A DNA stretch of 64,000 bases from Saccharopolyspora shandongensis. GTDB taxonomy: Bacteria; Actinomycetota; Actinomycetes; Mycobacteriales; Pseudonocardiaceae. The notes beneath the pieces are model-generated. The model ran no database searches, had not been told where the DNA came from, and was given only the letters and a program-made list of their open reading frames with translations. A program made the position numbers and the translations under genes. Shown piece after piece: positions 44,645-62,647 of this stretch. The DNA is taken from positions 1 through 64,000 of the forward strand of contig NZ_FNOK01000050.1 in NCBI RefSeq assembly GCF_900106995.1, given 5' to 3'. Every line of letters starts with the position of its first letter. Position 1 is the stretch's first letter.

Positions 44645-44798
44645 ATTCACAGTGCCCTGGCCAGGCGTGAAGGCTGGACGGGGAGCTACGGAGGGGGATG
44701 TCTCAGGGTGGTCTAGCCGCGTTTGAGATGGCCGGTTACCGATCACCTCGGGCAGCCCGGCGCTGGACGTGGATGCAGGCGAGTGGGGAGCGGTCGCT

Positions 44799-47591
44799 AT
44801 GAGCGCAGCCGAACCAACAGCGGCCAGTGATGAGACGCTGTTGGTCAGTGCGGTGCGGGGTTTGGTGGCTGAACGGCGTACCGCCGATCTCGCCGCTGTC
44901 GCCACCCTTGACAGTGCGTTTGATCGCGATCTCGGGCTGGACAGTCTCGCCCTCGCCGAGTTGCTGACCCGGATGGAGGGCGCCTTCGGTGTCAGCCTGC
45001 CGGAGGGCACCCTGGGCAGCATCGAGACGCCTCGCGATCTTCTCGCGGTCGTGCGCCGTTCCTCCCGTACGGGCGCGCCTCGGCCGGCCCAGGACTGGCA
45101 GGTGTTGCCGCCGCAGGCCGAACGGATACCCGACACGATCACTACCTTGGTCGAGGCCCTGGACTGGCATATCAAGGTCCACCCGCAGCGGCAGCATCTG
45201 CGAATCCTGCACGACACCGCTGTCGAGGACCTCAGTTACTCCGATCTCGGGCACGGTGCGGCAACGGTGGCCGCGGGACTGGCGGCTCGAAATGTTCGTC
45301 CCGGTGATGCGGTGGCGCTGATGCTGCCCACCGGTCGGGAGTACTTCGCCTGCTTCGCAGGGGTCATGCTGGCCGGCGGAGTCCCGGTGCCGATCTATCC
45401 GCCTGCGCGTCCGTCGCAGTTGACCAACCATCTTCGTCGCCAGGTGGGTATCCTCGCCAACGCCGAAGCGAGGGTGCTGGTCACCGATTCCGCTGCCGTT
45501 CGGATGACGAAGCTGGTTCGTGGACACGTCGCGTCGCTGCGGCATGTCGTCACATCTTCCGAGCTGACCGGGCACGGCGAGTCTGGTGCGGTCAGGCGGA
45601 ACGCCCGGGATGTCGCGTTGCTGCAGTACACGTCGGGCAGTACCGGCAACCCAAAGGGCGTGATGCTCACCCATGCCAACCTGCTGGCCAACATCCGGGC
45701 GATGGGCCAAGCCGCCGGGGTGTCCACATCAGACGTGTGCGTGAGCTGGCTGCCGTTGTATCACGACATGGGCCTGATAGGGACTTGGTTGTCAAGTCTC
45801 TACTTTGGACTTCCGCTGGTGGCCATGCCACCGTCGGCGTTTCTGACCCGGCCGTCCCGATGGTTGTGGGCCGTACACAACCACCGGGCCAGTCTGTCTG
45901 CAGGAGCGAACTTCGCCTACGAGTTGTGCGTGCGAGAGATCGACGACGCGGAGCTCGACGGGCTGGATCTCAGCTCTTGGCGCTTGGCGTTCAGCGGTGC
46001 AGAACCGGTCCGCGCCGATACCCTCGCGCGATTCGCGGATCGATTCCAGCCATACGGGTTGCGCCGACAGGCGCTGACCCCGGCCTACGGTCTGGCCGAG
46101 TCATGCGTGGGGCTGACCTTTCCGCCCATAGGACGCGGACCGGTCGTGGATCGCGTGGACCGCGAGGAATTCCTGCGATCGGGGCGCGCACGGCCTGCCG
46201 CGAAAGATGATCCGGATCCGCTGCGGTTCGTCGGCTGCGGTGTGCCGCTTCCTGGCCATGAGATCAGAATCGTGGACACCGCAGGCAATGAGACCGATGA
46301 TCGGCGCGAGGGCCGGATCGAATTCCGGGGTCCGTCGGCGACTCCGGGCTATTTCCGCAATCCCCTCGAGACTGCGGCACTGCGCCGGCGCGGCTGGTGG
46401 GACACCGGTGATCTCGGATATCGAGACGTCGGTGAACTGTACGTCACCGGTCGGGTCAAGGACCTCATCATCCGGGCCGGACGGAACCTGCACCCCGAAG
46501 AGCTCGAAGCCGCCGTCGGCGACCTTCCGGGAATCAGCAAGGACTGCGTCGCCGTGTTCGCCACGACATCGCGCGCCGGCAAGGCCGAACGGCTCATCGT
46601 GGTCGCAGAAACACCCCAAACAGCAACAGCCGCACGTGCCGCGCTGCGTGAACGCATCGCCGCCGTCTCCGTTGACCTGCTGGGCGCGGCGCCCGACGAT
46701 GTCGTGCTCGCGCCGCCCGGCGCGGTGCCGAAGACCGCCAGCGGCAAGATCCGGCGCGCGGCCTGCCGTGGCAGCTACGAACAGGGCGTGGTGGGTGCGC
46801 CTGGCCGCCCCGCGTGGTGGCACGGACTTCGCTTCGCCGCGGAGGCGATGACAGGTCCACTGCGCCGCGGTGTGCGGCGAGTGTCCGATGTCGCCTTCAC
46901 AGTCTGGTGTTGGTTCCTGGTCGTGCTGGTCGGCGGCCCGACTGTTCTCGGTGCAGCCGTGTTTCCCAACCGAGCTTTCGACATCGCCCGCCGGGCGGCT
47001 CTGAGCTTGGCCCGTCTCACCCGGACTCGGCTGGCCGTGGACCATGCCGAGTCCCTCGCAGACGTCCAAGGCTGCATCGTGGTCGCCAACCACCCCAGCT
47101 ACCTCGACGTCATCGCGTTGATCGCGGCCCTGCCCGGCCGTTACACATTCGTCGCCGCCGAAATCCTCGCAACCAAGCGAACGACCGGATTCCTGCTGCG
47201 GCGCGTGGGCACGCTGTTCGTCGAGCGGACCGATCGAGAGCAGGGTGTTGCCGACACCGACCGCCTCACTGCTGCAGCGCAGGACGGTCAACGGCTCGTT
47301 CTCTTCCCGGAGGGTGGACTGTCGCCGACGCCTGGCTTGCGGCCATTTCACATGGGAGCGTTCGTGATCGCCGCACGCTCAGGGCGTCCAGTCGTCCCCG
47401 TTGTTGTTCACGGCACACGTGCCATCTTCCCGCCCGGTCAGCACCGCTTCAGTCGCCACAATGCCGTGCACGTCACCGTTGGAACACCAATCTTTCCCAC
47501 GGGTTCGGACTGGGCGGCGGCGATCGAACTGGAGCGGGCGGCCCGCCACGCGATCTCCGAACACTGCGGGGAACCAGATCTCAGCAGCTGA
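44799..47591 (+). CDS. ACP - fatty acyl-AMP ligase - PlsC acyltransferase fusion
   Basis: A 930-residue three-domain protein. An acyl carrier domain (about 12-88) has the phosphopantetheine serine Ser49 in DLGLDSLAL. An acyl-AMP ligase domain follows (about 100-660), with YTSGSTGNPKGVM and TGDLGYRD. A C-terminal 1-acylglycerol-phosphate acyltransferase domain has NHPSYLDV and FPEGG. It could activate a fatty acid, hold it on the carrier and pass it to a glycerolipid in one polypeptide. ATG 44799 follows GGAGCGGTCGCT. A membrane helix lies before the PlsC part. Confidence 0.9.
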   Translation: MSAAEPTAASDETLLVSAVRGLVAERRTADLAAVATLDSAFDRDLGLDSLALAELLTRMEGAFGVSLPEGTLGSIETPRDLLAVVRRSSRTGAPRPAQDWQVLPPQAERIPDTITTLVEALDWHIKVHPQRQHLRILHDTAVEDLSYSDLGHGAATVAAGLAARNVRPGDAVALMLPTGREYFACFAGVMLAGGVPVPIYPPARPSQLTNHLRRQVGILANAEARVLVTDSAAVRMTKLVRGHVASLRHVVTSSELTGHGESGAVRRNARDVALLQYTSGSTGNPKGVMLTHANLLANIRAMGQAAGVSTSDVCVSWLPLYHDMGLIGTWLSSLYFGLPLVAMPPSAFLTRPSRWLWAVHNHRASLSAGANFAYELCVREIDDAELDGLDLSSWRLAFSGAEPVRADTLARFADRFQPYGLRRQALTPAYGLAESCVGLTFPPIGRGPVVDRVDREEFLRSGRARPAAKDDPDPLRFVGCGVPLPGHEIRIVDTAGNETDDRREGRIEFRGPSATPGYFRNPLETAALRRRGWWDTGDLGYRDVGELYVTGRVKDLIIRAGRNLHPEELEAAVGDLPGISKDCVAVFATTSRAGKAERLIVVAETPQTATAARAALRERIAAVSVDLLGAAPDDVVLAPPGAVPKTASGKIRRAACRGSYEQGVVGAPGRPAWWHGLRFAAEAMTGPLRRGVRRVSDVAFTVWCWFLVVLVGGPTVLGAAVFPNRAFDIARRAALSLARLTRTRLAVDHAESLADVQGCIVVANHPSYLDVIALIAALPGRYTFVAAEILATKRTTGFLLRRVGTLFVERTDREQGVADTDRLTAAAQDGQRLVLFPEGGLSPTPGLRPFHMGAFVIAARSGRPVVPVVVHGTRAIFPPGQHRFSRHNAVHVTVGTPIFPTGSDWAAAIELERAARHAISEHCGEPDLSS

Positions 47592-47713: not shown

Positions 47714-48925
47714 TCAGCGGGGCCGCTGCTGCCCCGGGAACCACCAGTCCGATGGCGGGGGTCTCGTCTCGGGCTCCCAGGTGAGATCGGCCCCTGCGGG
47801 CAGCGTGGCGGTGAGGCTGTGGTCGGACAGGACGCGGGCTACGTCGGAGGGCGAGATGATGCCGCGGAGTTCTCCTGCGCTGCAGACGAGGATCCGGCCC
47901 CGGCTGGTTTGAGTCATGCGAGGCAACACAAGTGCCAATGGCTCCCCCGGCTCGGCCACCGCGATCTTCTCCACCGGGCAGGCCACCTGCCCCAGCGCGG
48001 TCCCGCCGCGTACCTCCACCGGCACTTCACGAAGGTGCTGGAGGGTCACCAGACCTCGCAGCTGCCCGTGCTCGTCCAGCACCGGAAAAGCCGAGTGCCG
48101 GTGAGATACGACGGCATCGCGGAAGAACTGCTCCACCGACTGCCTGGCCTCCACCGTCTCGACGGGGCTGGACATCACGTCCCCGACCGAGATCCCGGCC
48201 AGCGCCACGCCGATGCGGGCCTGGCGTTCCTCAGCGGAGGCCATGTTGACGATGAAAAGGCCCACCAGCACCAACCACAGCCCACCGGTGCTGCGCCCCA
48301 GCACCTCGGCGAGGCCCGCGACGATCAAGAGGAATCCGAAGCCGCGTCCCGCCCACGCCGACCACACCGCCGCCCTGAACCGATCACCAGTCAACGCCCA
48401 CAACGCCGACCGCAACACCCGGCCACCGTCCAGTGGCGCTGCGGGTACCAGGTTGAACACCGCCACCACGGCGTTGAGCACCGCCAGATAGCCCAGCACG
48501 GCCACGATCAACTCATCGGCGCCCAGCCGAACCGCCATCCAGCCGCCCACTCCGAACACCAGCGCGAGCACCGCACTGGACGCCGGACCGACGACGGCGA
48601 TTCGGAAGTCGGCTCCAGCAGTGCGCGCCTCGCCCCGAAGCCGCGCGACTCCACCCAGCAACCACAGGGTGATGCCCTCCACCACGACACCGTTGCGCCG
48701 GGCGACGACCGAATGCGCGAGCTCGTGCGCCAACACCGAACACACCAACAGCACCGCGGAGACGGCCCCGCCGAGCGCGTAGGCAACCGGCGCATGCCCA
48801 GGAAAGGCAACCGGTAGCCAATACACTCCCAGGCCAACCGCCACCAGTGCGACGATGCCCGCCACGCTCCAATGCAAGCCGATCCGCACTCCGGCGAATC
48901 GTCCCAGCGGGATCGTGTCCTTCAT
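47714..48925 (-). CDS. Site-2 protease (M50) with CBS pair, Rip3-like
   Basis: A 403-residue membrane metalloprotease. The zinc site is HELAH at 67-71 with the third ligand in PLDGGR (Asp166), both within a six-helix core. Two CBS motifs fill the C-terminal 170 residues (VMSSPVETVEARQSVEQFF is the first). The fusion and length match Rip3 (Rv2625c), which lies beside hrp1 in M. tuberculosis. It probably cuts membrane-bound regulators in response to energy state. ATG 48925 lies 17 bases after the USP stop. Confidence 0.92.
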   Translation of the reverse strand: MKDTIPLGRFAGVRIGLHWSVAGIVALVAVGLGVYWLPVAFPGHAPVAYALGGAVSAVLLVCSVLAHELAHSVVARRNGVVVEGITLWLLGGVARLRGEARTAGADFRIAVVGPASSAVLALVFGVGGWMAVRLGADELIVAVLGYLAVLNAVVAVFNLVPAAPLDGGRVLRSALWALTGDRFRAAVWSAWAGRGFGFLLIVAGLAEVLGRSTGGLWLVLVGLFIVNMASAEERQARIGVALAGISVGDVMSSPVETVEARQSVEQFFRDAVVSHRHSAFPVLDEHGQLRGLVTLQHLREVPVEVRGGTALGQVACPVEKIAVAEPGEPLALVLPRMTQTSRGRILVCSAGELRGIISPSDVARVLSDHSLTATLPAGADLTWEPETRPPPSDWWFPGQQRPR

Positions 48926-48942
48926 CGTCCCCACCCCGCCCT

Positions 48943-49812
48943 TTATCCGCGGAGCACCGCGACGGTGCACGGCGCGGCGTGCACCACAGCGTGACTGACC
49001 GACCCCAGCACGGCCCGGCGGACCGGACCCCGACCACGGCTACCGACAACCAGCAACCCCGCACCTCGCGAAGCCTCGACGAGCGCTTGCGCCGGACGCT
49101 GGACCGTGACCACTTCGCGCACCAGAACATCGGGATAGCGTTCCGCGTACCCCGACAGAGAGCGCGACAACAGCTCCGAGGCTTCCCGATGCGCCTCGTC
49201 ATGATCAAGAACCCATGCCTGCGGGTAATCCAGAGGCAGGTCGCTCCAGGCGTGCACAGCGACCAAACGGCAATGATGCCGGGAAGCGAAGTCAACCGCA
49301 CGAACGCTGTTCGAGGAGCCGTCCACGCCCACGACCACAACCTGTGGGGATTCCTGCCCAGCCTGATCAGCGCCGCGGGTGATGACCACGGGTGCACCTG
49401 TCTGGTGGGTGAGCAACTCGGCTGCGGTAGAGCCGACCAAGACCAGATCCGGGCTGCCGATGCCCGACGAGCCCACCACCAGCAACTCGGCGTGCTCGGA
49501 CTTCCTCGCGAGCACCTCAACCGGATCGCCGGAGATCATTTCGGTGCATATCTCCAATCCGGGAGCGATCTGGAGGCACTGCTGCAATACCGTGCTCAAC
49601 TCCCGGCACATGGCCTGTTGAAGGGGCTCGTGAGGTTCTGCCGTGCCCGGCTGGCGAAACCGGGTGAGCTCCAGCAATGGCCTGGGGAACACGTGCACCA
49701 GCAACAGCGGACGACGCCTGCTGGCAGCTTCCCGAGCTGCCCACCCTGCAGCATGGCGGGATGCCTTCGAAGCATCAAGTCCCACTACGACCGCATGACC
49801 GACTTCCGGCAT
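48943..49812 (-). CDS. Universal stress protein, tandem UspA domains
   Basis: A 289-residue tandem USP with loops GSSGIGSPDLVLVGS and GSRGRGPVRRAVLGS, both of correct spacing. It belongs to the subgroup with FASRHH in domain two. ATG 49812 precedes the first strand VVVGLDASKAS. It is followed 17 bases later by the Rip3-like protease and was probably co-transcribed with it. Confidence 0.9.
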   Translation of the reverse strand: MPEVGHAVVVGLDASKASRHAAGWAAREAASRRRPLLLVHVFPRPLLELTRFRQPGTAEPHEPLQQAMCRELSTVLQQCLQIAPGLEICTEMISGDPVEVLARKSEHAELLVVGSSGIGSPDLVLVGSTAAELLTHQTGAPVVITRGADQAGQESPQVVVVGVDGSSNSVRAVDFASRHHCRLVAVHAWSDLPLDYPQAWVLDHDEAHREASELLSRSLSGYAERYPDVLVREVVTVQRPAQALVEASRGAGLLVVGSRGRGPVRRAVLGSVSHAVVHAAPCTVAVLRG

Positions 49813-54694: not shown

Positions 54695-55040
54695 CGGGTT
54701 TTTCCAGCAATAGTGGGGAAACCGCGGTCACCAGTTCGGTCAGCTGCTGCTTGTTGTCGGTCAGCACGTGATCGGCGTCGTCGATGGCGAGCGCAAGGCG
54801 GCGGGTTTCGGCGCGTCGCACCGCGTGCTCGGTGGTGTCGCCGTTCTTGCCGCGGCGGCGCGCAATCGAATTCAGCGACTGTCCGTGAGAGGACCGCGAG
54901 CAAGGTCGCGATCAGTGTCATCTCCGACGAGCAGCAATGCCCGCAACCGGTTGATCTGACGGGTCCGTGCGGTAGTGATCTCACGGCGTGCGCTGAGCAG
55001 GATCCGCAGGGCTCCGCGGTCACCGTCAGCGCGCGAGGTG
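54695..55040 (-). mobile_element. IS110-family transposase remnant
   Basis: Two frames give the central part of an IS110-type transposase: ARREITTARTRQINRLRALL in one, and RRAETRRLALAIDDADHVL followed by LTELVTAVSPLLLEKPGAGP in the other. The catalytic N-terminal DEDD part and the C-terminal serine region are absent. It is an immobile relic that marks an old insertion in the decayed 51-55 kb zone. Confidence 0.7.
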
Positions 55041-55221
55041 TGGGTAGCCGCTTCACGGACAGCTCCAGGCTTCTTCGTTCTCGCCGCGGAACAGCGCCCG
55101 GACGCGGTGCGACGGCTGGCCCGTGAACGAATCGGAGAAATCGAAGTAGTCCGCGAACTTCACGCCTCCTTCTTCCTCACCCTCGCGAAGTGCCGGTTTT
55201 GCGCGGAAACCGGCCGTGGCG

Positions 55222-56565
55222 CTAGCGCGGTTCGAGCGTGTGGCGGGTTCGCCACTTGCGGAAGGAGCGGGCGAATTGGCTGGTCAGGTTGGGGAGGACA
55301 AGCGTGATGCCCGCCCATGGCAGCACCAGCATGGCCAGCCGGAGCATGCCGACTGCGGCTCCGGCGGCGTCGCCGGCCTGGATCGAGCCGCCCGTGATGT
55401 TCCACTGCAGGATCAGCGAGTGCCACAGGGTCGGCAGCACGTACGGTGCGAGGAGCAGGAAAGCGGTGATCCAGTACGCCATGAACGGGATCGTCAGCAC
55501 GACCCACACCGTGATCACTCGGCGGACCCAGGGCTTCAGCTCCTGCACGCGGGGGTGCGGGCGGCGGCCCGGTAGCAGGCTGCGCAGCACGGGCCCCATC
55601 CGGTCGAAGAGGTCGGGGGCGCCCACCAGATCACTCAGGATGTAGTAGCCATCGAAGCGGATCGACGGCAGCAACTGCCAGAAGCTCGTCACCTGCCAGG
55701 CCAAGAGTGCCGCCAGCAGCCAGGGGAGCCCGGTCTGCACGTAGCCGATGATCATGATGAGCATCGCGATCACGTTGAAGTAGAGGCCACCGAGATCAGT
55801 GCGCAGCCGACCAACGCGGCTGAGGCGGTAGGAATCGGTGACCGTGCTATACATCGCGGGCCACACCAGATAGATACCCACACCCATCGCGCCCGGCCGC
55901 GCACCGCCATATCGGCAGGCCGCGACGTGCCCGCACTCGTGGAACATCCCAGCGAGGATCAGCACAAGCAGCACCAGGAGGATCTGCTCCGGTTGGTTCA
56001 GCAGCTCCTTCGCGTCCGCAACGACATGCTCGGCGCCGCCGTGCACGGCCAACAAGACGTCGACGACGACGAAAGCCGCCAGGGCCACGACCACCACCGG
56101 AGGCCAGAACAGGGGCTGGAACACGCGGGCGATGACCGCGACGACGTGTTCGGGCACCAGCGCGACGCGGAACTTCAACGCCAGCAACCGATCCCGCCCC
56201 TTCCGTGCGGCTTCCGGCGGCAGGTCGGACTCGAATTCGGCCGCCACAATCCCGGCCAGCCGCAACCTGTTCTCGACGAGGAAGAACACCTGCCCGGCGG
56301 TGATGCCGCGACCCGATTCGTCGCTGAGGCGCGCCGCGAGATCGGCGAAGCTGCGGCGCCCGTCGAGGCCCGCCGCGACCAGGTACAGCAGGTACGACAG
56401 CTGCAGGATCTGACCTTCGGGTCGCCGAACCAGGTACGGCGCTTCGCGATGACCCGAACCTTGGTAGCGGCCGATCAGCTCGGTGCCGGCCACGAGCGCG
56501 GGTACCGCCAGGTGCGCGACGTCCTCGTCTTCCGGTGACGAACCGGCCTGGTGCGGTGCGGCCAT
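55222..56565 (-). CDS. M50 membrane metallopeptidase with PqqD-like N-terminal domain
   Basis: A 447-residue protein. Residues about 25-108 resemble a PqqD-like peptide-recognition domain (LSYLLYLVAAGLDGRRSFAD, then GQVFFLVENRLRLAGIV). The membrane part has the zinc motif HECGH at 209-213 and the third ligand in RFDGYYILSD (Asp305), with about eight to ten helices. This is the peptide-maturation branch of M50, not the sigma-factor-cleaving type. ATG 56565 follows CTGGAGTCGTC. It lies 155 bases downstream of a small glycine-rich peptide gene on the same strand and near two more, so these peptides are its likely substrates. Confidence 0.88.
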   Translation of the reverse strand: MAAPHQAGSSPEDEDVAHLAVPALVAGTELIGRYQGSGHREAPYLVRRPEGQILQLSYLLYLVAAGLDGRRSFADLAARLSDESGRGITAGQVFFLVENRLRLAGIVAAEFESDLPPEAARKGRDRLLALKFRVALVPEHVVAVIARVFQPLFWPPVVVVALAAFVVVDVLLAVHGGAEHVVADAKELLNQPEQILLVLLVLILAGMFHECGHVAACRYGGARPGAMGVGIYLVWPAMYSTVTDSYRLSRVGRLRTDLGGLYFNVIAMLIMIIGYVQTGLPWLLAALLAWQVTSFWQLLPSIRFDGYYILSDLVGAPDLFDRMGPVLRSLLPGRRPHPRVQELKPWVRRVITVWVVLTIPFMAYWITAFLLLAPYVLPTLWHSLILQWNITGGSIQAGDAAGAAVGMLRLAMLVLPWAGITLVLPNLTSQFARSFRKWRTRHTLEPR

Positions 56566-56720
56566 GACGACTCCAGGGTGTTCATCCGGTCTGAAACCGG
56601 CCGACGGGCGCGACATCGTCCCTAGCGGGGGAGGTCGCGCCCGTCGGCGGTTGCTGCTTTCGAACGTTCAGCGGCGCGTTATTTTGGCCGTGAACGCCGC
56701 ACTGCGCAAAGCTTTCGACG

Positions 56721-57026
56721 TCAGCCGGCGATGACGACGCTGTCGCCGCCGATGCCGTCGCCGCCGATGCCGTTGCCTCCGATGCCGTTGCCACCATCGC
56801 CGCCATCGCCGCCGATGCCTCCGATGCCGCCGCCACCACCACCCTGGCCGCCGCCGTTGCCGCCGCCGTTGCCGCCGGAGCCGCTCTGGATGTCGCCGGT
56901 GGTGGCGACATTGGCGTCGCCGTTCGCTGGGAGCCAGAACGTGGACATGACGGTGCGCGCTGGGAGGAACTCGACGCGCTGGTCGTCCAGTTCTGCAGCG
57001 CTCAGCGACCGAGAGGTCTGTCGCAT
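56721..57026 (-). CDS. Glycine-rich small peptide A with conserved leader (candidate precursor)
   Basis: A 101-residue protein. The leader LSAAELDDQRVEFLPARTVM followed by ST (about residues 8-29) is shared with the two paralogues at 57729 and 58184. From about residue 48 the chain is almost only Gly with Asn, Gln, Asp, Ile (for example SGSGGNGGGNGGGQGG) and ends in SVVIAG. There is no signal peptide or membrane helix. ATG 57026 follows GAAGGAGCACCAG. It is upstream of the M50 gene on the same strand, so the two are probably an operon. The function is unknown. Confidence 0.85.
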   Translation of the reverse strand: MRQTSRSLSAAELDDQRVEFLPARTVMSTFWLPANGDANVATTGDIQSGSGGNGGGNGGGQGGGGGGIGGIGGDGGDGGNGIGGNGIGGDGIGGDSVVIAG

Positions 57027-57728
57027 CTGGTGCTCCTTCGCAATTCGAGGGAAATCACCGGGAAAACCGGGACTCGGCCACCCGTTGGATGCGCCACAGC
57101 GGCACGTTCCTGGCGCACGGGCAGAACCTAGGAGCACCGAACGCCTGATGCACTTTGATTCACCCTGCCGTGCAATTAACTTCTCGCCGCTCGTGGGTGT
57201 GCGTGCGCAGTCGTGTCGGGATCCGACCGTCGATCGACCACCGTGCCAGGGGCGGTCGGCGGCACGCAGGGCCGCAGCGGCTGGCCGCATGCCCACAGAA
57301 CCTGATCTTGGTCTCCGCTGATCATCCGACGCCCCGGATGCCGGAAGGAATTGCGCTGCCCGGTCTGCACGGCCGGGTTCCGGTTGACGTTCCTGCAGGG
57401 AAAAATTTACGCGCCGGTTTTTTTCGAAAACGTTTCCGTGTTGGCCGTGAATGCGAGTGCGATTCCGGAGCAGATCCCCCGTTTGCCTGAATTGATTTTT
57501 TTCCAGGGTGTTGGGCTGCGTCGATGCAGACCGCAGGGGTGCTGGTGTGCGCTGGTCGATGGCTTGCGGAATTGTGGTCCGGGTGACCGGAGTTTTCGGG
57601 CTGCGCCGGGGCGCGGGTTCCCTTAGCCTCCGGGCTGCTGCCAACGGATCTCGGGGCGTTGGAATGGGGATCCGAGGGACTTGCAACCTGGGCATCCGAG
57701 CCCATTCGAACGAAGGAGGACCGGCCAA
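57027..57728. other. Long divergent gap between glycine-rich peptide genes
   Basis: About 700 bases separate peptide genes A and B. The middle (57390-57520) is unusually AT-rich for this window, with T- and A-runs around TTTTTTTCGAAAACG. No convincing gene is seen. The right-hand 130 bases are a copy of the region before peptide gene C. Confidence 0.55.
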
Positions 57729-57740
57729 GTGTTCGAAAAG
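57596..57740 (+). repeat. Direct repeat, copy 1 (upstream of peptide B)
   Basis: This block and the one at 58020-58195 share GCGGGTTCCCTTAG followed by C or T, GGCGTTGGAATGGGGATC, and CCCATTCGAACGAAGGAGGA up to the start codon. The shared T-A-G-n-C-T after the CCCT could be a minus-10 element. The repeat includes the ribosome-binding site GAAGGAGG of the peptide gene. Confidence 0.8.
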
Positions 57741-58019
57741 ACTCGACCGCTGAGCTCTGCGGAGCTCCATGACCAGCGCATTGAGTTTCTGCCTGCGCGC
57801 ACGGTCATGTCGACGCTCCCGCTCCACGGAGGCTGGGACCCGATAATGATCAACGGTGGCGGCGCCGGTAACGGCGGCGGTAACGGTGGCGGCCAAGGTG
57901 GCGGCGCCGGTGGTAACGGTGGCGTCAATGTTGACGGTGGCCCCGGTGGCCCCGGCATTGGTGGTAACGGCGTTGGCGGTAACGGCGTTGGCGGCAGTGT
58001 CTTCGTCTGGCCGAAGTGA
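57729..58019 (+). CDS. Glycine-rich small peptide B with conserved leader (candidate precursor)
   Basis: A 96-residue protein that starts at GTG 57729 behind GAAGGAGGACCGGCCAA. The leader LSSAELHDQRIEFLPARTVM followed by ST is nearly identical to those of A and C; then comes LPLHGGWDPIMING and a glycine-rich run (GGGNGGGQGGGAGGNGG) with a later GIGGNGVGGNGVGG repeat, closing in VFVWPK. The codons form imperfect GGT/GGC tandem repeats. It is a tandem duplicate of C and divergent from A. Confidence 0.85.
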   Translation: MFEKTRPLSSAELHDQRIEFLPARTVMSTLPLHGGWDPIMINGGGAGNGGGNGGGQGGGAGGNGGVNVDGGPGGPGIGGNGVGGNGVGGSVFVWPK

Positions 58020-58195
58020 TCCTTTTTGACCGGACTGCGCCGTATCGCGGGTTCCCTTAGTCTCCGTGCTGATGTCAACGAACCTGGGGGCGTTGGAATG
58101 GGGATCTGGGAAACTTTCGACCTTGCTTGGCATCGATCTCCGCGCGGCATCCGAGCCCATTCGAACGAAGGAGGACCGGCCAAATGTTCGAAAAA
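58020..58195 (+). repeat. Direct repeat, copy 2 (upstream of peptide C)
   Basis: The second copy of the duplicated leader region begins just after the stop of peptide B, with the shared blocks GCGGGTTCCCTTAGTCTCC, GGCGTTGGAATGGGGATC and CCCATTCGAACGAAGGAGGA in the same order. The duplication thus covers promoter, ribosome-binding site and gene. Confidence 0.8.
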
Positions 58196-58456
58196 ACTCA
58201 ACCGCTGAGCTCTGCAGAGCTCCATGACCAGCGCATTGAGTTCCTGCCTGCTCGCACGGTCATGTCGACGCTTCCTCTCCACGGCGGCTGGGGCCCCGCC
58301 GTGATCAACGGTGGCGGCGGCGGCAACGGTGGTGGCCAAGGTGGCGGCAACGGTGGCGGCTCCGCCGCCGGTTCCGGTATCGGTGGTTCCGGCATCGGCG
58401 GTGACGGCTTTGGCGGTAACGGCATCGGTGGCAATGTCTTCATCCAGGTGCCGTAA
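58184..58456 (+). CDS. Glycine-rich small peptide C with conserved leader (candidate precursor)
   Basis: A 90-residue protein that starts at ATG 58184. The leader region MFEKTQPLSSAELHDQRIEF-LPARTVMST and then LPLHGGWGPAVING match peptide B almost exactly. The glycine-rich part differs in length and composition (GGGGGNGGGQGGGNGGGSAA, then GIGGSGIGGDGFGGNGIGG) and ends in VFIQVP. A strong hairpin terminator follows. A constant leader with a variable tail is typical of ribosomally made, processed peptides, but a structural glycine-rich protein is also possible. Confidence 0.85.
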   Translation: MFEKTQPLSSAELHDQRIEFLPARTVMSTLPLHGGWGPAVINGGGGGNGGGQGGGNGGGSAAGSGIGGSGIGGDGFGGNGIGGNVFIQVP

Positions 58457-58473
58457 TCCTGCCTGACCTTATG

Positions 58474-58504
58474 GGCGGGCCCGTCGTCTCTGGACGGGCC
58501 TGCC
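58474..58504 (+). terminator. Hairpin terminator after peptide gene C
   Basis: A 12-pair stem (GGCGGGCCCGTC at 58474-58485 with GACGGGCCTGCC at 58493-58504, one G-T pair) and a seven-base loop lie 17 bases after the stop codon. A weak T-rich stretch (TTCTGTCG) follows. Confidence 0.7.
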
Positions 58505-58655
58505 TTCTGTCGTCGCCCCGCAGTGCCGGGCCTGCGATCGTTGCTCCGGTCTGGGTGATCATTTCAAGTGCATGACTGTGGCCGTGGACACCAGGCACGG
58601 ACTTGGGCAGTGGATCAGGGCGCTCGGCCCACGATGATCACGTTGCGGACGTCGC

Positions 58656-59073
58656 TCACTTCGCTGCCTCGGGCACGAGTTCGGCGAGCAGGGCGCGGAC
58701 GCAGCGGTCGATGTCGTCGCGGATCGGCCGGACGTCCTCAATGGATTTGCCGGCGGGGTCGGTGAGTTCCCAGTCGAGGTAGCGCTTGCCGGGGAAGACG
58801 GGGCAGGCGTCGCCGCAGCTCATGGTGATGACGACGTCGGCGGCTTCGACGGCGTCGGCGGCGAGTTCCTTCGGAAATTCCTGGGAGAGGTCGAGGCCGA
58901 GTTCGTTCATGACCTGAAGCACGGCGGGGTTGACGGTGTCGGCAGGTGCGGATCCGGCGGAACGGACGGTGACGCGGCCCTGGGCGTGGTGATACAGGAG
59001 GGCGGCGGCCATCTGGGAGCGGCCAGCGTTGTGCACGCGGTGGAGAACCTCAGGAGACCTCGACGGCGGTCAC
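58656..59073 (-). pseudogene. ArsC-type arsenate reductase, catalytic cysteine lost
   Basis: The main frame (58656 to about 59052) is a low-molecular-weight-phosphatase-type arsenate reductase: VHNAGRSQMAAALL, VVITMSCGDACPVFPGKRYL with its redox cysteines, and DWELTDPAGKSIEDVR. The P-loop should read FVCVHNAGR, but the sequence gives EVLHRVHNAGR, so the nucleophilic cysteine is missing. The likely original start, GTG 59073 (VTAVEVS), is out of frame and runs into TGA. Two small lesions at the N-terminus thus disable it. Confidence 0.8.
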
Positions 59074-61670: not shown

Positions 61671-61855
61671 GAGCGCCTCCGGCTGGGAGGATCGCTGGTC
61701 CCCCGCAGGCCGTACTTCGACCCAGCAACAGTGGTTCTAGTCCCGCCGCGCCCGCCATGTCCAGCAGCACCAGGCCGTTCCATCCGTTCGGCCCAGCGAT
61801 CCGTCCCATGTGGACGATCACGCCCGGCGGGCTCGGCAGCGCGCTCCGGAGCGAC

Positions 61856-61868
61856 GCATACTGTATGC
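61856..61868. promoter_or_regulatory. Palindromic operator upstream of GntR gene
   Basis: GCATACTGTATGC is a perfect palindrome around its central base, in a locally AT-rich patch about 93 bases upstream of the GntR start. FadR-subfamily regulators bind short palindromes of this kind, so autoregulation is likely. Confidence 0.55.
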
Positions 61869-61960
61869 TAAAGCCATCGGGCAAAACACCCGCCGCCGAC
61901 CAAGCGCACCAACCGACCAGGACCGCCGGGCGGACCTGGCCCAGCCCCGGAGTTGACCGC

Positions 61961-62647
61961 ATGTCGCTGAGCTCGAAACTGCCGCAGGGCATCGCCGCGC
62001 GCCAGGTCGCGCGCCCGGTCCCACTCCGGGAAACCGTCTACGAGGCCATCCTGGAACTCATCATCACCGGCGAGCTCAAGCCCGGCCAGCACCTGGTCGA
62101 GAAGGAACTCGCCGAGCTGCTCGGCGTTTCCCGGCAGCCGGTGCGCGAAGCGCTGCAATGGCTGCAGAAGGACGAATGGGTCGACCTGCGGCCGGGCTAC
62201 GGCGCATTCGTGCACAGCCCCACCCCGGACGAGGCCGACCAGCTGTTGAGCGTTCGCACGCTGCTGGAGGCCGAGTCCGCCCGGCTGGCGGCGCTGAACT
62301 CGACCAAGGAGGGCGTGGCAGGCCTCAAGCAGGTCCACAAGCGCGGCGTCCAGGCCCTCAAGGCCGACGACATCGACGAGGTGGTCGCGGCCAACGCCGA
62401 GCTGCACGCCCTGATCACCGAGATGTCCGGCAACAAGATCCTCAAGGAGATCGCGGCGCAGGTGGCCCGCCGGGTCCGCTGGTACCACACCCCGGTGGCC
62501 AAGTCCCGGGGCAAGAAGTCCTGGGACGAGCACGCGGCCCTGATCGACGCGATCGGCAAGGGCGAGGCCGACCGGGCGGCCCAGCTGATGCGCGAGCACA
62601 CCGAGCACACCCGCGAGACCTACCTGACGAAGAGCTCCGAGGACTGA
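61961..62647 (+). CDS. GntR-family (FadR subfamily) transcriptional regulator
   Basis: A 228-residue regulator. The winged helix at about 22-85 contains YEAILELIITGELKPGQHLV and the recognition region ELAELLGVSRQPVREALQWL; the C-terminal FCD domain (about 95-220) is all-helical, with candidate metal-binding residues (ELHALITEMSGN, EHAALIDAI). The effector is unknown. ATG 61961 is the first start that begins at the family N-terminus. A palindromic operator precedes it. Confidence 0.92.
   Translation: MSLSSKLPQGIAARQVARPVPLRETVYEAILELIITGELKPGQHLVEKELAELLGVSRQPVREALQWLQKDEWVDLRPGYGAFVHSPTPDEADQLLSVRTLLEAESARLAALNSTKEGVAGLKQVHKRGVQALKADDIDEVVAANAELHALITEMSGNKILKEIAAQVARRVRWYHTPVAKSRGKKSWDEHAALIDAIGKGEADRAAQLMREHTEHTRETYLTKSSED

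Follow-up and report, generated by a model that had tools for sequence, protein, structure and literature searches.

A conserved peptide leader and its predicted RRE-site-2 protease partner in Saccharopolyspora shandongensis and other actinobacteria

What connects three small glycine-rich peptide genes with the M50 metallopeptidase gene beside them is the question raised by positions 55,222 to 58,456 of the window, which is the whole stretch of 64,000 nucleotides of Saccharopolyspora shandongensis DNA (contig NZ_FNOK01000050.1) analysed here. The three genes (pep1, pep2 and pep3; Table 1), each preceded by a Shine-Dalgarno sequence, share the leader block DQR(V/I)EFLPARTVMST (...VEFLPARTVMST) and continue into differing tails of 61-72 amino acids, which contain 48-49% glycine with many GG steps, 0-1 lysine or arginine and no cysteine, and which end in AG, PK and VP. 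The nearest large gene encodes an M50 metallopeptidase containing the motifs HECGH and RFDGYY. A sequence-only reading of this DNA had described these genes and proposed that a PqqD-like region of the peptidase recognises the leader; its observation is confirmed and its interpretation supported by the present analysis. The window locus is one case of a wide leader-M50 system, which is probably a leader-addressed peptide release system. Its gene anatomy (leader, core and a putatively dedicated leader protease) would fit that of ribosomally synthesised and post-translationally modified peptides (RiPPs).

Pairing of the leader with an M50 gene

In the 10.15-Mb genome of S. shandongensis, the 36-amino-acid leader of pep2 has five matching places, all at two M50 loci, namely the window locus and a second, fuller copy on contig C64 (L006). 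At a third locus of the genome (L086), the M50 is diverged and its peptides carry different tags; these two further M50 loci were not seen in the sequence-only reading. Among 61 related genomes the leader is found in 16, and a close M50 (at least 52% identity) is present in exactly those 16. In the listed Saccharopolyspora M50 loci, the M50 gene has a pep1-type gene on its upstream side. Differences between leaders fall mostly at codon position 3 and comprise 765 synonymous and 791 non-synonymous changes over 178 pairs of relatives, which are not independent of each other, where a synonymous share of 24.5% is expected for random changes. The leader is therefore conserved beyond chance, as its genomic matches are confined to M50 loci, its distribution is that of the close M50 and synonymous changes are in excess.

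The leader profile matches 31 of the 249 genomes of the family, 28 of which also match the M50 profile, while the other three contain weak matches inside large open frames. Paralogous M50s keep their own tags. The type-A stretches of Saccharopolyspora (n = 17, 15 of them with an adjoining M50) contain 45 LPxRT leaders and no LPxRE leader, whereas the 13 type-B loci, whose diverged M50 shares 34-40% identity and has its own peptides, contain 20 LPxRE leaders and no LPxRT leader; L098 follows neither pattern, its two leaders reading LPERK and LPTRD. The peptides near the diverged M50 (L086, L094-L105) are mostly LPxRE-tagged and have tails such as DINTIVAVNTAVALFGSQATAAQVINQV. In the Pseudonocardiales genus g3, genomes contain 5-26 leader matches and 1-3 M50 matches each, in mostly fragmented assemblies. 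Several of the leader matches in this genus (G484, G023, G619 and G598; L228-L237) lie far from any M50 match.

Outside the genus, the pairing was followed in the best 80 of at least 279 confirmed relatives in named genomes. These loci span, among others, Saccharopolyspora, Pseudonocardia, Geodermatophilus, Blastococcus, Streptomyces, Arthrobacter, Actinomadura and Solirubrobacter, and also include Acidimicrobiia, Frankiaceae and some metagenome-assembled genomes labelled Chloroflexi. After removal of L148 (a duplicate of L147) and nine Saccharopolyspora loci, a leader gene is located within 1.5 kb of the M50 gene, on either side and strand, in 61 of 70 loci by the strict motif (E.LP.[RK]..[ML] in a small gene with a Shine-Dalgarno sequence) and in 66 of 70 by a loose one. 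Among the four loci missed by the loose motif, L162 and L183 nevertheless encode a leader peptide, with V at the M/L/I position, and the M50 matches of L180 and L191 start close to a contig end, at distances of 108 and 95 bases. Strict matches are 56 times denser near the M50 gene (124 in 200 kb) than beyond 2.5 kb (4 in 361 kb, all four also resembling real leaders), with matches at 1.5-2.5 kb placed in neither class. Of the near matches, 118 of 124 are upstream of the M50 gene on the same strand and one is downstream on the same strand. The consensus of 144 non-redundant leaders is L(S/T)xxE(L/I)(E/D)xQxxExLPxRxx(M/L)(S/G/T), where L, P and M/L/I are set by the search pattern and, at the position allowing R or K, 99% of the leaders have R.

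The pairing is less complete in a phylum sample. Eighteen of its 24 loci with long M50 matches (L107-L130) contain a motif peptide in their flanks, the profile adds three (L114, L123 and L125), and the peptides of L113 are located on another contig of its genome, while neither motif nor profile finds a leader peptide at L119 and L130. The lower completeness of this sample does not change the probability given to the system, because the shortfall is mostly recovered. A profile of the NAV-type peptides matches 18 of 396 phylum genomes, 17 of which have an M50 match; in the eighteenth (G066) the contig with the peptides is only 5,621 bases long, and the peptide genes, at bases 111-765, are directed towards the nearer contig end. 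The rows of the leader and NAV profiles were picked by hand, so that some of their own source genomes are recovered by construction. Leader profiles were also built, likewise from hand-picked rows, for three sets (Gly, NAV and Streptomyces/type-B), and these match each other (E = 6.5e-10, 1.4e-6 and 2.5e-5), the match at 6.5e-10 also spanning the tails. NAV-type peptides also lie beside the M50 gene in the assemblies labelled Chloroflexi (L167, L177, L179, L182 and L197), which may represent transfer or mislabelled bins. In the titles and abstract openings listed by searches of a library of open-licence papers, no description of an LPxRxxMS leader with an M50 partner was found.

The protease, the tails and the locus

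The M50 protein of the window is predicted to consist of a RiPP recognition element (RRE)/PqqD-like domain joined to a site-2 (M50) protease. Its AlphaFold model (75 sequences; predicted local distance difference test, pLDDT, 89.7; predicted template modelling score, pTM, 0.85), which supersedes an earlier one from 18 sequences (pLDDT 75.3), contains a three-stranded winged-helix RRE/PqqD fold and a site-2 protease fold with HExxH and the distant DG motif, and comparison by VIA-align likewise points to an RRE domain plus a site-2 protease, the best match of the latter being SpoIVFB with its pro-sigma substrate. The PqqD-like N-terminal region suspected from the sequence is thereby supported, and Pfam PF05402 (PqqD) gives no hit to the window protein at its gathering score and only 19.2 and 18.0 bits, below the cut-off of 23.4, to the relatives at L084 and L083. 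The RFDGYY motif presumably carries the distal zinc ligand. Among family models, the window protein matches NCBIfam daptide_HExxH (NF041824) over residues 58-425 (E = 6.8e-26; 91.3 bits, cut-off 300) and YydH/LiaK (NF058609) over residues 176-328 only (52.2 bits, cut-off 225). The Foldseek lists contain no match at E ≤ 0.001, and searches of solved structures with the companion, NAV-peptide and M50 profiles return nothing usable (6, 0 and 0 rows, respectively).

The leader is constant across loci and the tails differ. GGX-rich tails are found in Saccharopolyspora, Pseudonocardiales and Geodermatophilaceae, NAV/Q repeat tails in Thermoleophilia, Acidimicrobiia and Frankiaceae, and a single form, nearly constant between species, in Streptomyces. 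Pep1, pep2 and pep3 match no Pfam or NCBIfam family at E ≤ 1, and eight scanned leader peptides belong to no Pfam family. Cysteine-containing tails occur at L122 and L214; peptides with the same tag and C...GLLGxLGL...C tails, or a Cys-free version of them, are encoded at L122 (548-1255), L214, L251 and L085 (5920-6213), and three scanned peptides of this type have no Pfam hit. A likeness of the Cys-containing peptides of L122 and L214 to chaplins was considered and was not borne out by Pfam.

Many loci of the NAV and Streptomyces types are adjoined by a gene for a companion protein with an apparent signal peptide (judged by eye) and usually two cysteine pairs, and no scanned companion reaches the cut-off of any Pfam or NCBIfam model. 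The companion profile matches 36 of the 80 loci, about 21 of which were used to build it. Of the 43 non-Gly-tail loci, 32 have the companion, against none of the 28 Gly-tail loci (Fisher p = 5e-11, a test that treats related, non-independent loci as independent), L148 being dropped from this count and eight loci having no scored tail (in L174 and L175 the peptides are on the other strand). It forms one open frame with the M50 at L084 and in seven of the 24 phylum loci (L115, L118, L120, L123, L125, L126 and L127). With their leaders removed, two sets of tails match the repeat region of the companion at the same place with scores of 25.9 and 21.5, exceeding all 60 column shuffles in each case (maxima 17.0 and 12.6); the whole-profile values are modest. 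In Gly-type Saccharopolyspora, the companion is replaced by a secreted-looking Gly-rich protein at 14 of the 15 M50 loci, and only the window locus is without it. This protein contains NAGxGDDTI-type repeats (L006, 6451-7749, 432 amino acids, and 13 other Saccharopolyspora loci) and, in the sister loci, is encoded close to both pep1 and the divergent peptide gene.

Table 1. Features of the peptide-protease locus in the window
Feature	Position	Strand	Basis and remarks
RRE/PqqD-like + site-2 (M50) intramembrane metalloprotease (predicted), 464 aa	55222..56616	-	ORF, NCBIfam, AlphaFold, VIA-align
Predicted leader-binding RRE/PqqD-like domain, residues 36-127	56236..56511	-	
Site-2 protease core (predicted), residues 156-439	55300..56151	-	
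HECGH zinc motif	55927..55941	-	Sequence; H226, E227, G229 and H230 invariant in alignment A2
RFDGYY distal motif	55642..55659	-	Sequence; R320, D322, G323 and Y324 invariant in alignment A2
pep1, leader + Gly-rich tail, 101 aa, ATG start	56721..57026	-	Co-oriented, 104 bp upstream of M50
pep2, divergent, leader + Gly-rich tail, 96 aa, GTG start	57729..58019	+	
pep3, divergent, leader + Gly-rich tail, 90 aa, ATG start	58184..58456	+	
Conserved 5' element before pep2	57628..57720	+	75% to element query; alignment A7
Conserved 5' element before pep3	58062..58175	+	90% to element query; alignment A7

Directly before the divergent Gly-rich peptide genes of the genus lies a sequence-conserved element of about 100 bp (alignment A7, 21 upstream regions), which is also found at L006 upstream of 8361; the copy before pep2 is without an internal stretch that most relatives have. 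The element is strong at only three places in the genome, all of them immediately preceding divergent peptide genes, whereas the 22 remaining rows have E ≥ 0.149, and therefore no wider regulon is revealed. A structured-RNA reading was rejected, as none of 12 predicted pairs has two-sided changes and five single folds have z values from -0.68 to 1.71. The best Rfam match in window positions 55000-59000 is a microRNA family at E = 0.24, which falls far short of the gathering score of that family, and no family reaches its gathering score at L066, L071 or L006. The element is treated as a DNA or 5' untranslated region element.

The surroundings were surveyed in two ways. Neighbouring genes of the relatives were called with a simple gene picker based on third-position GC content and clustered, 16 clusters being shown and named by eye, and nine flanking proteins of the window locus, a subset of the open reading frames between 47.7 and 62.6 kb, were scanned by Pfam. 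No modifying enzyme is recognised in the 16 clusters or among the nine window neighbours, the latter including no radical-SAM enzyme, and no constant transporter or modifying-enzyme partner is seen in either survey; an ABC-type ATPase cluster occurs near only 10 of 79 loci and so does not qualify as a constant partner. The nine window neighbours include a single regulator, a GntR/FCD gene (61757-62647). About 6 kb from the locus lies the gene of a further M50 protease (47714-48970), an ordinary one containing a CBS domain, whose Pfam hits are strong, unlike those of the RRE type. A 940-amino-acid open frame (44769-47591) starts with a region resembling, by eye, an acyl-carrier domain.

Possible roles of the tails after a probable release

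In the release system considered probable here, short precursors would consist of a constant tag of about 20-30 residues, LSxxELxxQ(R)VEFLPARTVMS/T, and a repeat-like tail. The N-terminal RRE/PqqD-like domain would bind the tag, the site-2 protease part would cut at or just after its M-S/T, and the tail would then leave the cell, because no transporter or modifying enzyme is seen as a constant partner. Covariation of the leader with the RRE and with the site-2 protease part does not single out the RRE, in a comparison limited to loci whose leader was usable and leaving aside L139, L148, L156, L183 and L200. After release, the window tails, as GGX-rich chains of about 60-70 residues, may form polyglycine-II-like bundles serving as a surface or matrix element, and at NAV/Q-tail loci the tails would often be matched by the secreted-looking companion with like repeats.

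The role of the tails is the least certain part. A structural or surface role is tentatively favoured over an antagonistic one, which is rather doubtful, because the repeats of tails and companion match and the Streptomyces tails are near-constant. In its fullest form, which is conceivable but should not be counted on, this would be a widespread actinobacterial surface-assembly system in which unmodified, Sec-less repeat peptides under one LPxRxxMS leader are cut and delivered outside by the RRE-site-2 protease and co-polymerise with the same-repeat companion, giving a curli- or PGRS-like fibre whose making follows RiPP logic; a genome showing one to three of these proteases would have as many as 26 genes for subunit-like peptides.

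Among named proteins, those most closely related to the protease belong to daptide and epipeptide pathways, many loci encode several different precursors, as in bacteriocin clusters, and the ABC-type ATPase genes mentioned above lie near some loci. The protease could accordingly free short peptides that act on membranes or form pores, as daptides or TMcins do, against competitors, a reading that is possible on these grounds and yet stays on the doubtful side, as neither survey reveals a constant immunity or transporter partner and the window tails are nearly devoid of basic residues. Moreover, the open frames neighbouring the type-B M50 have counterparts in as many as 12 further Saccharopolyspora loci among the matches listed, and the Streptomyces tails hardly vary between species, both unlike arms-race peptides, and a companion with like repeats fits poorly.

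The peptides may also be RiPPs modified by enzymes encoded elsewhere in the genome, with the M50 performing only the last step. RRE-leader logic is typical of RiPPs. A daptide modifying protein also contains an RRE, according to PMC10036551. This explanation is unlikely, however, since the window tails are Cys-free and no modifying enzyme is recognised among the 16 clusters or the nine window neighbours.

That the M50 frees a pheromone sensed by neighbouring regulators is suggested by a response-regulator gene about 1 kb from the L086 M50, by like genes in other type-B loci, and by one family, with a LuxR/AAA-like example, near 14 Pseudonocardiales and Geodermatophilaceae loci, the LuxR/AAA protein near the G023 locus being typed by Pfam. 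Signalling is nevertheless distinctly unlikely, as the products would be low-complexity chains of about 30-70 residues, one genome has up to 26 leader matches, no constant receptor is seen, and the window neighbourhood offers only the GntR/FCD regulator. Site-2 proteases often cut regulatory proteins, and the site-2 protease part is matched best by SpoIVFB, with its pro-sigma substrate, but a housekeeping cleavage, with a regulatory M50 adjacent by chance to ordinary small proteins, is very improbable in view of the motif enrichment, the co-occurrence, the paralogue-specific tags and the M50-companion fusions.

Comparison with known systems

If the release system is as proposed, it would represent a class of leader-addressed peptides needing perhaps one membrane protein for recognition, cutting and possibly export, in which the leader logic of RiPPs operates although the core is not chemically modified. 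Because the tag stays constant while the tails differ, it would be a handle for finding more members and for testing how a substrate is handed over from an RRE to an intramembrane protease, and, if the tails assemble, they would offer a new view of actinobacterial surfaces.

The closest known protein is the daptide protease MpaP (NF041824), which, like the window protein as modelled, is an RRE fused to a site-2 protease, the family model covering residues 58-425 of the window protein. However, the window protein reaches 91.3 bits against an equivalog cut-off of 300, and the daptide leader contains ELExMEAP, whereas LSxxELxxQxxExLPxRxxMS is found here. Daptides have a C-terminal threonine, which is absent from the window peptides, and a dehydrogenase, an aminotransferase and a methyltransferase, none of which is present among the nine scanned window neighbours. 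Unlike MpaP loci, many relatives of the window M50 also have the extra companion. The locus resembles the last step of daptide maturation, yet it is not a daptide system, because it differs in leader motif, C-terminal residue, modifying genes and equivalog score.

For EpeP, the M50 protease of epipeptides, both cleavage and export of the peptide are proposed in PMC10885120; EpeP/YydH/LiaK (NF058609) matures and perhaps exports a small peptide, as is suggested here for the window M50. The window protein, however, scores 52.2 bits against the cut-off of 225, and there is no radical-SAM enzyme among the nine scanned neighbours. In TMcin clusters, the protease TmcP (DUF3267), from the site-2 clan, removes the leader of a membrane peptide; the precursor has a transmembrane helix, the cluster contains an ABC transporter and a DsbA-like protein, and an RRE is not mentioned in the accessible portion of PMC13252029, whereas an RRE-like domain is predicted here.

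GGX-rich chains, here the PGRS domains of mycobacterial PE_PGRS proteins and the snow flea antifreeze protein, have been reported or modelled as polyproline-II (PPII)/polyglycine-II bundles (PMC13243192), and the window tails share with them a likeness of composition only. The window peptides contain no Pfam family and so no PE domain. Curli fibres consist of the subunit CsgA and the nucleator CsgB, with short repeats of spaced N, A and Q and a second secreted protein of like repeats. The NAV tails and their companion may be compared with them only as a works-like analogy, as the eight scanned peptides have no Pfam family, 14 companions match no curlin family (E ≤ 0.1), and no Sec signal is evident by eye on the leader peptides. 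The leader-M50 system is best filed as a variant of RRE-site-2-protease peptide maturation.

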